A stretch of DNA of 64,000 nucleotides from Kosakonia radicincitans DSM 16656 (GTDB taxonomy: Bacteria; Pseudomonadota; Gammaproteobacteria; Enterobacterales; Enterobacteriaceae). The translations under genes and the position numbers were made by a program. Numbering within the stretch: position 1 is the stretch's first letter; the number at the start of each line of letters is the position of its first letter. The stretch covers positions 124,001 to 188,000 of the forward strand of contig NZ_CP018016.1 in assembly GCF_000280495.2 (NCBI RefSeq), read 5' to 3'. Below the pieces are notes generated by a model. The model searched no databases. It saw only the letters and a program-made list of their open reading frames with translations, and was not told where the DNA came from. Shown here in pieces: positions 35,894 through 63,911 of this stretch.

Positions 35894-35906
35894 GTCATCT
35901 GCAACG

Positions 35907-35933
35907 AAAAAACCCGCTCCGGCGGGTTTTTTT
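35907..35933. terminator. Bidirectional terminator between glyS and the GGDEF gene
   Basis: AAAAAACCCGC and GCGGGTTTTTTT flank a TCCG loop. It ends the glyQS transcript and, read on the minus strand, the response regulator-CheC-GGDEF operon. Confidence 0.92.
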
Positions 35934-35947
35934 ATAGCCCCACTTCA

Positions 35948-36904
35948 TCAGCTCTTAACCGGTTGCGATTGTCTGGTGGCGGATTTTACGCGCACCGTAT
36001 TGCGGCCCGCGCGTTTGGCTACGTACAGCGCGTCATCCGCACTCTGAATAAGCTGGCCGTATTCTGCGTGTTGTTGCTGGTTGAGACTGGCGACACCAAT
36101 GCTCACGCTGACGATGCGGTCGGGCGAGTTAGCATGGGGTAAATCCAGCAGTTGAACGCTGGTGCGCAACCGTTCGGCAATTTCCACCGCATCGGCGGAG
36201 CGCGTTTCCGGCAGCAGGGCGCAGAACTCTTCGCCGCCATAGCGAAACAGAATGTCGTTTGGGCGATCCAGTGCATTACGCATAGCGGTCGCGATCTGTT
36301 GCAGGCACTCATCTCCGCGCTGGTGGCCGTAGCAATCGTTATAGCGTTTGAAGTGATCGACATCGATAAGCAGTAGCGACAGCGATTTGTTGTTGCGCTT
36401 GCTGGCGCGCCATTCGCGGTCAATGCAGAGATCGAAGTAACGCCGGTTGCCCACGCCGGTAAGGCCGTCCGACAGCGATTGTGATAACAGTTCGTGCGCC
36501 TGATCGCGCAGCAGGGATTCGCGGCGGACTGCGGCCGTAACGTCCACAATCTGGATCAGGCAAAACCGTTCAGCATCACCCAGCGGAACAATAGTCACGG
36601 CCTGGCTCAGCCGGGCAGCAGGCCGTGCCGGTTCGGCATAAAGCGGAAACGGAGAACGGTGCAGCGACTGCGACAGCAGGGCTGATAAATTGTGGCCAAT
36701 CGCCTGGCGGATAGCATCGCCCACGCGGTGATACTGCAAGTCAGGAAAGACAGTAAAAAAATCCTCCCCCAGCGTTTCGCTGGCGGCAAGGCCGGTATGG
36801 GCTTCCAGCCAGGCGTTCCACAACGTAATGCGGTATTGCGCATCAACGATGATCACGCCGAGGCTGAGCGCAGAGAATGCATCCAGTAGCAACTTATCTT
36901 TCAT
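35948..36904 (-). CDS. PAS-GGDEF diguanylate cyclase
   Basis: Predicted cytoplasmic synthase of c-di-GMP from two GTP, 318 residues from ATG 36904. A PAS-like sensor domain (about 1-125: GVIIVDAQYRITLWNAWLE) is joined by a helix to a GGDEF domain (about 148-312). The active-site loop is GGEEF (223-227), the substrate segment DVDHFKRYND is intact, and an RPND inhibitory I-site lies five residues before GGEEF, so product inhibition is expected. No transmembrane helix is seen. The ATG lies two bases after the CheC stop; an upstream ATG at 36928 would overlap CheC. Third gene of a response regulator-CheC-GGDEF operon. Confidence 0.88.
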   Translation of the reverse strand: MKDKLLLDAFSALSLGVIIVDAQYRITLWNAWLEAHTGLAASETLGEDFFTVFPDLQYHRVGDAIRQAIGHNLSALLSQSLHRSPFPLYAEPARPAARLSQAVTIVPLGDAERFCLIQIVDVTAAVRRESLLRDQAHELLSQSLSDGLTGVGNRRYFDLCIDREWRASKRNNKSLSLLLIDVDHFKRYNDCYGHQRGDECLQQIATAMRNALDRPNDILFRYGGEEFCALLPETRSADAVEIAERLRTSVQLLDLPHANSPDRIVSVSIGVASLNQQQHAEYGQLIQSADDALYVAKRAGRNTVRVKSATRQSQPVKS

Positions 36905-36906
36905 GA

Positions 36907-37545
36907 TTACATTCCGTCGGGAACACAACCGGATTCAAGGCGGCTGATATAGAGCCGGATTTGCTCACGTAAGTCTTGCAGCGCAGACATATCCAGGATA
37001 AACGCGAGATACCCCTGAATTTGCTGGCGCTCCAGCGCAAAATCGATGCGCAGCATCATCACTATCGGATCGTTTTCATCTTTGTCCGGATTGAGGATCT
37101 CCTTGCTGGTGCCGACGCGCACTTCGGGCAGTGAGCCCTGTAGCTCTTTCTGGAACATATTCGCCAGCGTACCGACACAGGCGTTGAGCACGATATTACC
37201 GATTTCGCTCATCGCTTCACGTTCCATCTCCCCCAGTTCGTGGGCGGGGATCAGATCGCCAACCATCATGCGTACGATTTCAAAACTGGCGGCTTCCGGA
37301 AACATCAAAATCGCTTCCGTAGCATACGCGCCCTCATAATGCTGACTGATACCAAACAGTGAGACACCTGCGCCCAGCTCATCGGCAGCGTCGGAGCGGG
37401 TGGTAAAGCGGATGGTTGGTACCGACATGCGTACTTCTTCATTGACGATATTGCTCATCGCTGCAGCCGCATGGCCGACGCCAATGTTGAAGATCTCCAT
37501 CAGGCTGTCAGCTTCGATATCGCTGATATCCGTCAGCGCGTTCAT
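36907..37545 (-). CDS. CheC-type chemotaxis phosphatase
   Basis: A 212-residue protein with both CheC active-site motifs intact. The first fits D-x3-E-x2-N-x22-P (Asp13, Glu17, Asn20, Pro43); the second has Glu110, Glu114, Asn117 and Pro140. CheC/CheX/FliY proteins dephosphorylate phospho-CheY, and CheC also binds CheD. E. coli uses CheZ and has no CheC, so this is an accessory gene. It overlaps the upstream response regulator by four bases (ATGA), its obvious substrate candidate, and is followed two bases later by the GGDEF gene. Confidence 0.85.
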   Translation of the reverse strand: MNALTDISDIEADSLMEIFNIGVGHAAAAMSNIVNEEVRMSVPTIRFTTRSDAADELGAGVSLFGISQHYEGAYATEAILMFPEAASFEIVRMMVGDLIPAHELGEMEREAMSEIGNIVLNACVGTLANMFQKELQGSLPEVRVGTSKEILNPDKDENDPIVMMLRIDFALERQQIQGYLAFILDMSALQDLREQIRLYISRLESGCVPDGM

Positions 37546-37913
37546 GAATTCGTCTCCAGGCTATTCAGCAATGCATGGAGCTGCGGCTCTTTCAGCGGTT
37601 TCGGCAGAAAACCAAGGCCAAGTTCTTCGGCGGCGGCTTGCACGGAATGCTGCACATTGGCAGTGAGCAGAATAATGTGGGTCTGCGGGTGGCTTTTACG
37701 AATGCGCGAAGCCGTCTCCAGCCCGCCAATGCCCGGCATATTAACGTCCAGCAAGATCAGATACGGTGGCGTCGTCGCGGCCAGAGCGATCGCCTCTTCG
37801 CCCGTGCCGGCCTCGTCAATTTTCCAGTCGTTATGCAAATTAGTGACAAACTGCCGTGAAATCATGCGCGACAGGCGGCTGTCGTCAACAATCAGAATAT
37901 ATCTGGACATCAT
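37542..37913 (-). CDS. CheY-like single-domain response regulator
   Basis: A 123-residue receiver domain with no output domain. All key residues are visible: acidic pair Asp10-Asp11, phospho-acceptor Asp56 (LLDVNMPG), Thr84 (ILLTAN) and Lys105 (PKPL). No histidine kinase is encoded nearby, so the phosphodonor must be elsewhere, for example CheA. Two adjacent ATGs at 37913 and 37910 are possible starts, with AAGAGAA upstream. First gene of the operon with CheC and GGDEF; a sigma-28-like promoter lies about 190 bases upstream. Confidence 0.88.
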   Translation of the reverse strand: MMSRYILIVDDSRLSRMISRQFVTNLHNDWKIDEAGTGEEAIALAATTPPYLILLDVNMPGIGGLETASRIRKSHPQTHIILLTANVQHSVQAAAEELGLGFLPKPLKEPQLHALLNSLETNS

Positions 37914-59869: not shown

Positions 59870-60494
59870 TCCTCATGTGCCCGGCAGCGTTCAGGTTGCC
59901 GGGCCTGCCACTTTACTCTGCACCCGACAATCGATATTCTCCGCTGCTGACAATCCTTATAAACGTTCCGACTTAATTTTGAAATTTTCAATAAATTTAC
60001 CTTAAAACGAACGGAGAGATAATTTCAGTAGGAATAATGGGTTAGCGGAATAAAACAGTTTTATGACTCCCAATAATTATTTCTAAATATTTCTCTGAGT
60101 AAGCAAAAATTAAGGTTATTATTTCTTTGTCTGGATTATTACTCTTTTAATCAAGGTAAAAATGACATTTATTAATATAAATTTAGGTTAAGCTGGTTTT
60201 TATCCCCATAATATCCCTACATTTTTGGACGTTAATACTTTAATAGATACAGCAGCAAAAAAAGATGGCACATGTATGGGTATTGTTTATATATTTACCG
60301 GAAATAAACACCGTGTTAGCAATGCTGAAATGTAACACGTAAAAACAGGCGGAAGATCATCGCCGAAACATTATCTTGTACCCGCGCAAACACAGCACAG
60401 CCAAAATAAAAAGCCACAACTCGACCAATATCCGGGCGCTGAGATCTTTAGCGGTGGTGGGTACAATATTATTTTGTAAATCATGAGATTAACA
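59870..60494. other. AT-rich dppF-bcsO intergenic region
   Basis: These 625 bases hold the dppF hairpin GCCCGGCA/TGCCGGGC (59879-59886/59897-59904), then a markedly AT-rich stretch (about 59950-60340) unlike the coding DNA on either side, typical of H-NS-bound promoter DNA. One 25-codon frame begins at 60265 but lacks a ribosome site and I do not call it. The bcs operon promoter must lie here or just upstream of 60480; I could not fix its hexamers. Confidence 0.6.
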
Positions 60495-60986
60495 ATGAAT
60501 CATTATGATGATTTGCAGAGGTTTAAGGATAAAACCCGCAACCAGAAACACGATTTTAAGGATCTCTCCGCGCAAAACCCTGGCAGCGACCAGGGAAACT
60601 GGGCACTGATCCAGCAGCTCTCTCCGGCAACGGATGAATCGACGCTGACCATGGGCGGCCATGTTTCTCTTCCTGTCCCGCAATCCGTTGAACCGGATCT
60701 CTTTGCCCGCACAGAGAATGCGCCCGCAGTCGACGTCAGCGAACCTGCGTCAATACCGGCTCCTTCCATTTTTCAAGGAGTTGCCAGCCAGCTTGCGACG
60801 GTCATTCCGCCCCCGGCGCCTGTGCTCGCCCCCACACCGGTGAGAGCGTTGCCTGCCGAGGGGGTAAAATCTGCCACCGTCAATTACGCGCAACTCTTCG
60901 CCGCCAAAGTGCCGGAAGCAAAGCCGAAAACGGAAAAAAACCAGCCATTACACTCGTTGTTAGAAAGGATCGCGTCATGCCGTTGA
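60495..60986 (+). CDS. bcsO: BcsO-like proline-rich cellulose operon protein
   Basis: A 163-residue acidic, proline- and alanine-rich protein, largely unstructured in its middle (about 60-125, many P and A), with a conserved-looking N-terminus NHYDDLQRFKDK and C-terminus LHSLLERIASCR. BcsO is the name for proline-rich first-gene products of one class of enterobacterial bcs operons; its function is not established. ATG 60495 is preferred to 60483, neither having a strong ribosome site. Overlaps bcsQ by ten bases. Confidence 0.75.
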   Translation: MNHYDDLQRFKDKTRNQKHDFKDLSAQNPGSDQGNWALIQQLSPATDESTLTMGGHVSLPVPQSVEPDLFARTENAPAVDVSEPASIPAPSIFQGVASQLATVIPPPAPVLAPTPVRALPAEGVKSATVNYAQLFAAKVPEAKPKTEKNQPLHSLLERIASCR

Positions 60987-61780
60987 TTTGTGTTTGTTCA
61001 CCGAAAGGCGGTGTCGGAAAAACGACCCTGACGGCGAATCTGGCGTACGCGCTGGCCCGTTCGGGCAGCAAAGTTCTGGCGCTCGATTTTGACGTGCAGA
61101 ATGCGCTGCGCCTGCATTTTGGCGTACCGCTAACGGACGGACGCGGCTACGTTGCCAAAGCGGCGGAATCGTCGGACTGGAGCCAGTTTGTCCTCACCGC
61201 AGGCGGCAATATCTTCGTCCTGCCTTATGGCGACGCCACGGAAGAGCAGCGACTCACATTTGAAGAGCGGCTGGCGAATGACGAGCACTTTTTAACGCGT
61301 GGACTGAATACGCTGTTGAACTATCCGGGTCTGATTATCGTCGCGGATTTTCCGCCAGGGCCGTCGGCTGCGTTAAAAGCCATGTCGCGGCTGGCCGATG
61401 TGCATCTGGTGACGTTGCTGGCGGATACCGCATCGCTCTCCCTGCTGCCGCAAATCGAAAACAACCGCCTGACGGGGGACGTGCTCAACCGTAAAGCTGG
61501 TCACTATTTTGTGGTCAACCAGAGTGATAACCGCCGCCAGATCAGCCGTGATGTCACCACGTTTCTTGAGCAGCGCCTGGGCAACCAGCTCCTGGGTGTG
61601 CTGCACCGCGATGAAAGCGTTGCCGAAGCGAATGCCTCACAGCAATCGGTGTTCGATTTTAGCCCGGCTTCCGCAGCCGCTTTCGATATTGAACTCATTG
61701 CAAAACGCGTCGCCGGCATCTTAGGCGTCAAAATCGGTGACGGGACGGTTCACAACTCGCCGCGCATGTCAGGTTTCTAA
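60977..61780 (+). CDS. bcsQ: BcsQ, MinD/ParA-type ATPase of cellulose synthesis
   Basis: A 267-residue SIMIBI ATPase with deviant Walker A KGGVGKTTL (10-18), switch segment LALDFDVQNALR and VADFPPGPS. BcsQ is needed for cellulose production and its polar localisation in E. coli and belongs to the cytoplasmic part of the Bcs secretion machine. ATG lies inside the end of bcsO. Sixteen bases separate it from bcsA. Confidence 0.9.
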   Translation: MPLICVCSPKGGVGKTTLTANLAYALARSGSKVLALDFDVQNALRLHFGVPLTDGRGYVAKAAESSDWSQFVLTAGGNIFVLPYGDATEEQRLTFEERLANDEHFLTRGLNTLLNYPGLIIVADFPPGPSAALKAMSRLADVHLVTLLADTASLSLLPQIENNRLTGDVLNRKAGHYFVVNQSDNRRQISRDVTTFLEQRLGNQLLGVLHRDESVAEANASQQSVFDFSPASAAAFDIELIAKRVAGILGVKIGDGTVHNSPRMSGF

Positions 61781-61796
61781 CGCTCACGGGCAACCT

Positions 61797-63911
61797 ATGA
61801 AAAAGCTTCTTTCTGTTTTGCTGGTACTGGCAATGGTTCCTGTCGCCCTGCTGGTGGTCATTACGCCGATGGACAGCCAAAAGCAGTATATTTTTGGCCT
61901 GATCAGCATGGGTATTTTGTTCCTGCTTGGATTCAGCAAAAAGCGCAGTGTTTCGGTGATTATGGTCGTGATGTCAGCGCTGTTGTCGACACGCTACATG
62001 TATTTCCGCCTGACCCAAACCCTGCATTTTAACTCTGAGATTGAAACCCTGCTCGGCATGGGACTGTTCCTTGCGGAAGTCTATGTCTGGGTGATGCTGC
62101 TGCTGAGCTACCTGCAAACTGTGTGGCCGCTGAAGCGTGAAATAGTGCAACTGCCGGATGATATGAGCCAGTGGCCGACGGTGGATGTCTACATTCCGAC
62201 CTACAACGAACCGCTGGATGTGGTGCGTGATACGGTGCTCGCCGCGCAATGTATTGATTACCCGCGTGATAAGATGAAAATCTACCTGCTTGATGACGGT
62301 AAACGCCGGGAGTTTGCGGTGTTCGCCGCCGATGTCGGCGTTGGGTATATCACCCGTAACGACAATGCGCACGCCAAAGCCGGCAACCTGAACCACGCGA
62401 TGAAGCTTACCCACGGCGAGCTGATCTGCGTCTTCGACTGCGACCATGTTGCCACGCGAATTTTCCTGCAAGCTACGGTCGGCGGTTTCCTGAAAGATCC
62501 GAAACTGGCGCTGGTACAGACGCCGCACTACTTCTATTCACCGGATCCGTTCGAACGCAACCTGTCGGTAGGCCGCAACATTCCTAATGAAGGCTCACTG
62601 TTCTACGGCCCGATCCAGCAAGGCAACGACAACTGGAACGCCACCTTTTTCTGCGGCTCGTGCGCGGTGATCCGCCGTAGCGCGCTGGAGGAGATTGGCG
62701 GTTTTGCCGTGGAAACGGTGACCGAAGATGCACATACCGCGCTGAAATTGCAGCGCCTGGGCTGGGGCACAGCGTTTATCGATATCCCGCTGGCGGCCGG
62801 TCTGGCGACCGAACGCCTGGTACTGCATGTGATCCAGCGTACCCGCTGGGCGCGCGGCATGACGCAGATTTTCCGCCTCGATAACCCGCTGCTGGGACGT
62901 GGGCTGACCCTTCCGCAGCGTCTGTGCTACCTGAGCGCGATGCTTTATTACCAGTTTGCGCTGCCGCGAATCGCCTTTTTGACCGCGCCGCTGGCTTATT
63001 TGCTGTTTAACCTGAACATTATTCACTCTTCGGCCACGTTGGTCTTCGCCTACGCGCTGCCGCATTTGTTCCTTGCCGTGTTCGTTAACTCGCGTCTGAA
63101 CGGACGTTTCCGTTACAGCTTCTGGGGAGAGATTTATGACATCGTGCTGGCGTTCCATATTGTCCTGCCGACCGTCGTCACCATGCTGTTCCCGAAACGC
63201 GGGAAATTTAACGTCACCGATAAAGGCGGCCTGCTGAACGTTGGCTATTTCGATTTCAGCGTGGTGCGCCCGCATTTGATTATCGCGGTGTTGCTGGCAG
63301 CTGGCGTGGTGGCCGGGATTGTCCGCGCCTGCGCCCATGATTACTTCGGCGTCGATCCGCGCGTTATCGCCCTTAACGTCGGCTGGGGGCTGTACAGCCT
63401 GATCTTCCTGCTGGCGGCAATTGCCGTGGCGCGGGAAACCCGTCAGACCCGCAAAACCATCCGTATTGATGTCGATATTCCGGTGTTGATCCACTATGCC
63501 AGCGGTATTACCTCGCGCAGCCAGACCGCCGATTTATCGATGGGCGGCTGCCGTATCGTGGTACCGGACGAGCGCCACCAGAGCGATGAAATCGAAGAGA
63601 TTGAGCTGCTGCTGCAATCGGGTGCGATTGCCATTCCGGCTCGCATCATCGCCAGCGATGCAGAGTATATCCGCCTGATGTTCGACGATATTCCGCTGTC
63701 GCGCCGCCGTGAACTGGTGCGCGTGGTGCTTTCCCGCGCGGATGCGTGGATCCATCCGCCGAAACCGCAGGACAACCCGTTCCGCTCGATGCTGACCATT
63801 GTGCGCTGCGTCTTTGATCTCTTCTGGCTGACCTGGACATCGCGTCGGGAAAACCGCCGCCTGCGGGCAGAGCTGGCGGCGAAGGCGACGTCGGAGGAGG
63901 GCGGCGTATGA
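61797..63911 (+). CDS. bcsA: Cellulose synthase catalytic subunit BcsA
   Basis: Processive inner-membrane GT2 enzyme making beta-1,4-glucan from UDP-glucose under c-di-GMP control. The 704 residues include N-terminal helices (to about 110), a GT2 domain with DDG (166-168), DCD (214-216), TED (309-311) and QRTRW (347-351), further helices, and a PilZ domain from about residue 545 with RQTRKTIR and the DLSMGG motif that bind c-di-GMP. It lacks the long N-terminal extension of E. coli BcsA. An upstream in-frame ATG lies inside bcsQ. Confidence 0.94.
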   Translation: MKKLLSVLLVLAMVPVALLVVITPMDSQKQYIFGLISMGILFLLGFSKKRSVSVIMVVMSALLSTRYMYFRLTQTLHFNSEIETLLGMGLFLAEVYVWVMLLLSYLQTVWPLKREIVQLPDDMSQWPTVDVYIPTYNEPLDVVRDTVLAAQCIDYPRDKMKIYLLDDGKRREFAVFAADVGVGYITRNDNAHAKAGNLNHAMKLTHGELICVFDCDHVATRIFLQATVGGFLKDPKLALVQTPHYFYSPDPFERNLSVGRNIPNEGSLFYGPIQQGNDNWNATFFCGSCAVIRRSALEEIGGFAVETVTEDAHTALKLQRLGWGTAFIDIPLAAGLATERLVLHVIQRTRWARGMTQIFRLDNPLLGRGLTLPQRLCYLSAMLYYQFALPRIAFLTAPLAYLLFNLNIIHSSATLVFAYALPHLFLAVFVNSRLNGRFRYSFWGEIYDIVLAFHIVLPTVVTMLFPKRGKFNVTDKGGLLNVGYFDFSVVRPHLIIAVLLAAGVVAGIVRACAHDYFGVDPRVIALNVGWGLYSLIFLLAAIAVARETRQTRKTIRIDVDIPVLIHYASGITSRSQTADLSMGGCRIVVPDERHQSDEIEEIELLLQSGAIAIPARIIASDAEYIRLMFDDIPLSRRRELVRVVLSRADAWIHPPKPQDNPFRSMLTIVRCVFDLFWLTWTSRRENRRLRAELAAKATSEEGGV

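Follow-up and report, generated by a model that had tools for sequence, protein, structure and literature searches.

In Kosakonia radicincitans DSM 16656, a stand-alone receiver, a CheC-type phosphatase and a PAS-containing diguanylate cyclase are encoded by three consecutive genes, which raises the questions of where the receiver obtains its phosphate, what the phosphatase acts on and in which direction the cyclase is switched. We addressed these questions in a window of 64,000 nucleotides (the whole stretch analysed; NZ_CP018016.1, positions 124,001 to 188,000) and by comparison with related loci in other genomes.

Organization of the operon and its surroundings

The operon runs on the minus strand from 37913 to 35948 in the order receiver, CheC and PAS-GGEEF cyclase, with the catalytic residues intact. 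The features, in window positions, are as follows.

37542..37913, minus strand: stand-alone receiver (REC), 123 aa (Pfam Response_reg, E 1.6e-23)
37746-37748, minus strand: phospho-acceptor D56 of the receiver, predicted from sequence
36907..37545, minus strand: CheC-type phosphatase, 212 aa, with two intact sites, E17/N20 and E114/N117 (Pfam CheX, E 6.1e-10; CheC, E 2.9e-07)
35948..36904, minus strand: PAS-GGDEF diguanylate cyclase, 318 aa from ATG (Pfam GGDEF, E 2.4e-51; PAS_4, E 3.3e-06)
36539..36883, minus strand: N-terminal PAS domain of the module type (motifs WN-W and LSQ-L---PFPLY), common to relatives with different outputs; putative docking site of the receiver
36224..36265, minus strand: RPND inhibitory site (I-site) and GGEEF active site of the cyclase, from sequence
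35905..35940, no strand assigned: hairpin flanked by A/T runs, between the cyclase and the converging gene, read by eye

An initial annotation, made without database searches, had described three minus-strand genes with a 4-base overlap and a 2-base spacing, and the coordinates confirm this: the receiver and CheC genes overlap by four bases (ATGA), and two bases separate the CheC stop from the cyclase ATG. It had also credited the receiver with all of its phosphorylation residues (D10, D11, D56, T84 and K105) and CheC with both active sites (D13/E17/N20/P43 and E110/E114/N117/P140); all are present, and each was invariant in 81 of 81 sequences (the window and 80 relatives). The GGEEF motif, RPND I-site and N-terminal PAS domain attributed to the cyclase were likewise found. 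CheC carries two E-x2-N-x22-P sites and the CheC fold, the best match of its model being Thermotoga maritima CheC (2f9z/1xkr; TM 0.77 by query length, Foldseek E ~1e-14).

Upstream of the operon lies a 97-aa gene that we take to be yiaG, and the converging gene downstream is presumably glyS. Read by eye, the hairpin at 35905..35940 may be a terminator shared by the cyclase and the converging gene; a consensus scan did not list it, and the consensus promoter scan gave no match above shuffles. The genome comprises 6.12 Mb in three contigs, and the operon CheC is its sole CheC match. As the initial annotation had stated, no kinase or CheD is nearby: the CheA genes are located elsewhere in the genome, none in cis with the operon, CheD has no match in the genome, and no MCP or other kinase was recognised by eye among the translated ORFs of the window.

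At 60483-63911 of the window we observed the apparent start of a bcs cellulose operon, consisting of a ParA/BcsQ-like gene and a 704-aa BcsA-like gene (by eye), so that the bcs-like genes begin ~23 kb from the receiver-CheC-cyclase operon. The links of the latter to chemotaxis and to cellulose that the initial annotation proposed stay presumptive.

Close relatives and probable origin

Scanning genome contigs with a CheC alignment revealed 149 relatives, of which 80 loci were kept: seven from Kosakonia (one labelled Enterobacter), three from Phytobacter, and the rest from Oxalobacteraceae or from metagenome-assembled genomes labelled Burkholderiaceae. Gene order, read by tblastn and profiles, was the same in 80 of the 80 kept loci, CheC being preceded by the receiver and followed by the cyclase. 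This rules out chance neighbours, and the trio is far from the rare association that the initial annotation had named as grounds for doubting its circuit.

Among the Enterobacteriaceae, ten of 295 genomes had a CheC match, including G176 with a mere 4e-4 and 23% identity and G028 with a match in broken pieces. The nearest named CheC proteins were from Kosakonia (97%), and on the yiaG side the K. sacchari locus (L014) is flanked by related genes. The operon sits at different sites in Kosakonia and Phytobacter, and is also borne by plasmid pTMTA97303 of P. diazotrophicus (98,997 bp, typed as non-mobilizable). In the CheC tree, Kosakonia, Phytobacter and six protein-search sequences (one named Duganella) formed a clade (100/100) with a long stem (0.76), nested inside the Oxalobacteraceae; support was 99/98 for the whole set and 83/76, 92/97, 93/83 and 98/78 for the inner nesting branches, which we regard as moderate evidence that the enterobacterial copies nest there. 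This nesting, together with the plasmid copy in Phytobacter, suggests that the operon probably arrived in Kosakonia horizontally. Since the GC3 of the three operon genes matches that of glyQS, we infer that the transfer, if any, was not recent.

In the enterobacterial genome G028, the CheC relative (G028:C1:197329-197966) is split over frames and has in-frame stops, and may be either a decaying copy or an assembly error. In the Oxalobacteraceae locus L041, the upstream neighbour is presumably rpiA, and other recurrent flanks of the relatives resemble genes that we take to be argA, yggX, eda and edd. Another receiver-bearing gene is present ~2.3 kb further on in L053.

A decayed or unused import, in which the genes were transferred together, the kinase was left behind and no working circuit exists, would fit the probable horizontal origin, the lack of a kinase recognised by eye nearby and the broken CheC frame of G028. 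However, invariance of the tested catalytic residues in all 81 sequences and the GC3 match to glyQS are as expected under long selection, and we consider such an import highly improbable.

A constant receiver-CheC-PAS core with changing outputs

To describe the wider family we used two draws. In the first, from the class, 45 of 369 genomes had a CheC match; six with E above 1e-10 (G515, G329, G387, G398, G373 and G382) were left out and the Kosakonia genome (G000) was set aside, giving 40 loci in 38 genomes of 22 families. In the second, phylum-wide, 58 of 398 genomes matched at E 1e-10, and 20 loci were taken from the 57 non-own genomes, mostly among the strongest matches (G984, G1002 and G1021 belong to the class of the window). 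The receiver and PAS profiles were built from the close and class loci, so that the phylum set alone is a fair test, and tandem CheC pairs were counted as one. The receiver was found upstream of CheC in 35 of the 40 class loci, the module PAS downstream in 33, and both in 29; the corresponding numbers for the 20 phylum loci were 14, 18 and 12.

The third gene varied. By motif (ten outputs being confirmed by Pfam), the 40 class loci had GGDEF in 17, GGDEF-EAL in six, REC-GGDEF-EAL in two, a shorter GGDEF in one, and a histidine kinase in nine, no third gene being found in five. When the window PAS was searched against 26 chosen genomes, the third gene of the operon was its best match in 25 (the exception being G642), with scores of 74-91 bits even in eight histidine-kinase versions, dropping to 28-33 bits in G346, G432, G358 and G330. 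An alignment of 23 module PAS domains displayed the shared motif WN-W(M) ... LSQ-L---P-PL ... Q ... P ... CLIQI-DVS. As the PAS domain, receiver and CheC are shared across relatives with different third genes, the constant parts are the receiver, CheC and PAS, and it is the output that changes; judged from sequence, this suggests that the same relay pair has been re-used with different output enzymes.

Several loci depart from this layout. Two CheC genes are present at one module in L136, L143, L208 and L213. In L148 (4111-6462) and L151, which are of the same genus, the third gene starts with a receiver in place of PAS (REC-GGDEF-EAL; by Pfam in L148), and the second CheC site reads H, T and K for E, N and P. 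A small protein, STAS-like by eye, is encoded just ahead of REC-CheC in L135 (1699-3816), L140 (6966-9085), L176, L180 and L219, and in L135 the STAS-like gene is followed by a REC-SpoIIE phosphatase gene (Pfam). We take these genes to be HsbA/HsbR-like, which may point to a connection to a partner-switching pathway.

Source of the phosphate

CheA was scored with a local profile built from L174, L175, L149 and L146, at a threshold of 200 bits. It exceeded the threshold in six of the 20 phylum loci (L209, confirmed by Pfam, and L205, L208, L211, L213 and L214, by the local profile alone) and in three of the 40 class loci (L136, L146 and L149), all three of which were used in building the profile. 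In these nine loci of 60, from eight families, CheA and the module are ~0.5-1.8 kb apart; cases at ~10 kb (G621, G1021 and G984) lie outside this count. By rough arithmetic, with three CheA genes per 3.5 Mb, fewer than 1% of genes would have a CheA gene closer than 2 kb.

Longer stretches were read for nine genomes chosen on hints (G621, G526, G405, G335, G525, G492, G522, G1021 and G984). Ahead of the module in G621, genes for a receiver, CheA, CheW, MCP, CheR, CheD, CheB and a second MCP form one same-strand run, and in G526 CheA adjoins the module, both confirmed by Pfam. Pfam also identified CheA-like, CheB and MCP genes just upstream of the module in both G335 and G525, joined by a CheW gene in G335, the MCP of G525 being one with protoglobin. 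Having no PF02895 match, G525 and G335 had been candidates for evidence against CheA, which we rejected since in both a CheA-like gene (Hpt, HATPase, CheW and REC) precedes the module by two to three genes. With CheA-like genes counted, G522 is the only one of the 38 CheC-bearing class genomes without one. In addition, CheA, CheR and CheB are encoded on a plasmid of Azospirillum argentinense next to CheC and to a histidine kinase that bears the module PAS (131 bits); the receiver there is of another type (21 bits). With CheA encoded this close to the module in several relatives, a chemosensory source of the phosphate is plausible. Against a CheA donor, none was linked to the module in the Kosakonia, Phytobacter and Oxalobacteraceae loci, save in L037, the only one of the 80 loci with CheA above 200 bits, where it is ~7 kb off.

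At the genome level, CheA (PF02895) was present in 50 of 50 CheC-bearing genomes of the close set, the Kosakonia genome included and that of L018 excluded. Among the distant genomes it was found in 35 of 38 with CheC versus 24 of 42 controls (Fisher p 3.7e-4), and FliM in 34 of 38 versus 17 of 42 (p 5.6e-6); the 38 include some without a full module, and the controls were class genomes without a CheC match, taken by handle number, unmatched for size and family and in some cases small. FliM was not found in G525 and three f35 genomes.

The donor may alternatively be a HisKA- or Hpt-bearing hybrid kinase, with the operon unrelated to taxis, a proposal that concerns the donor only and is compatible with the mechanism favoured below. 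A histidine kinase is itself the third gene in nine of the 40 class loci, and in L134 a gene for a MASE3-PAS-HisKA-HATPase-REC-REC-Hpt hybrid kinase lies directly upstream of REC (L138 looks alike by eye), indicating that the donor need not be CheA; the genomes without FliM and the lack of a PF02895 match in G522 point the same way. However, CheA lies beside the module in the nine loci of eight families and on the Azospirillum plasmid, and is commoner in CheC-bearing genomes than in the unmatched controls, and we regard a donor unrelated to chemotaxis as possible but somewhat doubtful.

Target of the phosphatase

CheC acts on phospho-CheY in other bacteria. The Kosakonia CheC resembles those of T. 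maritima and Bacillus subtilis in having two phosphatase sites (and, for T. maritima, in fold), but differs in that its genome lacks CheD, and a CheC-CheD adaptation circuit is therefore not expected. CheD was also not found in five other operon-bearing Enterobacteriaceae genomes, and was present in 11 of 11 Oxalobacteraceae tested. CheZ had three matches in the Kosakonia genome and was found in 48 of 55 genomes tested. With CheZ present and CheD absent, it is unlikely that CheY is dephosphorylated mainly by the operon CheC. The operon receiver shares 29-30% identity with the two 131-aa receivers beside CheZ in the same genome, which argues that it is not a CheY duplicate; on these grounds we rejected CheC as the main CheY phosphatase or as a CheD partner.

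Two or more chemotaxis or flagellar systems appear to coexist in the Kosakonia genome: two CheA genes lie at ~1.23-1.25 Mb and 2.16 Mb of G000:C1, each region with CheZ and a CheY-length receiver, and the third CheZ is at 3.79 Mb.

CheC could still serve as an extra phosphatase for flagellar CheY, so that the operon would tune swimming directly, as its activity in other bacteria and the higher frequency of FliM in CheC-bearing genomes might suggest. We consider this very unlikely, given that CheZ is already present threefold and that CheC adjoins its own receiver, of low identity to the CheY-length ones, in all 80 close loci. The simplest reading is that CheC and the operon receiver are a dedicated pair. 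In the genus of G621, compared in three genomes only, G405 has lost the CheA of the cluster and its receiver reads V, E and Y for D, D and D, and no receiver and no CheA were found in G522, a pattern that counts in favour of the switch proposed below. The CheC sites are intact in both, suggesting that CheC may have other targets as well.

Comparison with known systems and direction of the switch

In the Wsp system, a CheA-type kinase feeds a receiver that controls a GGDEF enzyme, and WspR is activated by phosphorylation. WspR proteins are the closest solved relatives of the Kosakonia cyclase domain by sequence (3i5a, 158 bits; 42-48% identity in the WspR entries) and are also among its closest folds. 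In contrast to Wsp, the Kosakonia receiver and GGDEF domain are separate, unfused proteins and are accompanied by a CheC; nor was any MCP, CheW, CheA, CheB or CheR of the Wsp kind recognised in cis in the window (CheW, MCP, CheB and CheR by eye).

A stand-alone receiver acting on diguanylate cyclases is also described in Shewanella oneidensis, in which CheY3 binds the cyclases PdgA, PdgB and SO4207 and, when phosphorylated, promotes biofilm together with cyclases; the phosphorylation that accompanies biofilm formation reportedly does not depend on CheA3 (PMC7666153). However, CheY3 is the flagellar CheY, and the passages on it in that paper mention no dedicated CheC or operon partner cyclase (PMC7666153).

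The closest parallel in composition is pdcABC of Burkholderia thailandensis, consisting of BTH_II2363 (GGDEF), BTH_II2364 (CheC/CheX) and BTH_II2365 (receiver) (Wang et al. 2022, as cited in PMC9899790). According to the section of that review on these genes, pdcABC controls motility, biofilm and virulence, and the phosphorylated receiver inhibits the cyclase via its PAS domain, an inhibition relieved by the CheC/CheX phosphatase (PMC9899790); a second account likewise mentions that PdcC represses PdcA (PMC12421958). As described there, a PAS-containing cyclase, a CheC/CheX phosphatase and a phosphate-accepting receiver have three consecutive tags, and the Kosakonia operon has the same trio side by side, with PAS, an intact GG(D/E)EF and intact catalytic residues, but in another host and at another genomic site. 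PdcABC agrees with the Kosakonia trio in composition, and its reported mechanism through PAS fits the docking on PAS that the swapped outputs suggest.

In the passages retrieved from CC-licensed PMC literature, we found no other account of a REC-CheC-cyclase trio. KoBdcA/B of K. oryzendophytica FY-07 were considered and rejected as the same operon, since they adjoin bcsIII and the main text names no CheC, CheY or response regulator (PMC13141831). Elsewhere, a secondary mutation in a motility suppressor of Vibrio cholerae was noted in VC0377, a CheX-family gene (PMC8789113), and for Pseudomonas syringae each genome is listed with a single orphan response regulator whose output domain is CheC-like (PMC2222644), possibly a natural REC-CheC fusion.

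We consider it reasonably probable that the Kosakonia operon is a PdcABC-type c-di-GMP switch, probably acquired horizontally, with its kinase in trans. A histidine kinase encoded elsewhere, perhaps of the CheA type, would phosphorylate D56 of the receiver; the phosphorylated receiver would keep the partner cyclase of the operon low by docking on the PAS domain of that enzyme; CheC would strip the phosphate and free the cyclase; and the freed cyclase would raise c-di-GMP and favour the sessile state. The inhibitory sign is carried over from B. thailandensis, as given in the review (PMC9899790), and under it CheC would activate the cyclase. Against this reading, the profile test found no receiver in six of the 20 phylum and five of the 40 class loci, and PAS was missing in seven of the 40 class loci.

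The same parts could work with the opposite sign, the phosphorylated receiver activating the cyclase in the manner of WspR or of CheY3 with its cyclases, and CheC turning it off. The kinship of the cyclase domain with the phosphorylation-activated WspR speaks for this, as does the binding of cyclases by phosphorylated CheY3 in support of biofilm in Shewanella (PMC7666153); the sign reported for B. thailandensis, where a system of the same three parts works by inhibition via PAS (PMC9899790), speaks against it, and we judge the activating version unlikely. The circuit of the initial annotation is largely right in that a receiver phosphorylated elsewhere would be reset by CheC and act on the cyclase, as reported for PdcABC (PMC9899790); it needs correcting in that, with the reported PdcABC sign, CheC would be the activator of the cyclase.

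Implications

This kind of switch is already known from PdcABC; what seems new is a receiver-CheC-PAS unit whose outputs can be exchanged and which sometimes lies next to CheA, the swapping of outputs and the linkage to CheA appearing to be less familiar than the switch itself. More tentatively, and with slightly less than an even chance of being right, REC-CheC plus one PAS subtype may form a general, output-swappable adaptor of Proteobacteria, in which REC would be loaded by CheA-type or other kinases and unloaded by CheC, and would gate, through the shared PAS, whichever enzyme is fused to that domain; PdcABC and the Kosakonia operon would then be two cyclase versions, and copies without a kinase would plug into the chemotaxis kinase of the host after transfer. 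If true, a finding made in one species (PdcABC) would extend to a cassette of many proteobacterial families, a PdcABC-type cassette would have reached plant-associated Enterobacteriaceae, and there would be a testable route from chemosensory kinases, via one PAS docking domain, to the gating of c-di-GMP enzymes or of other kinases.
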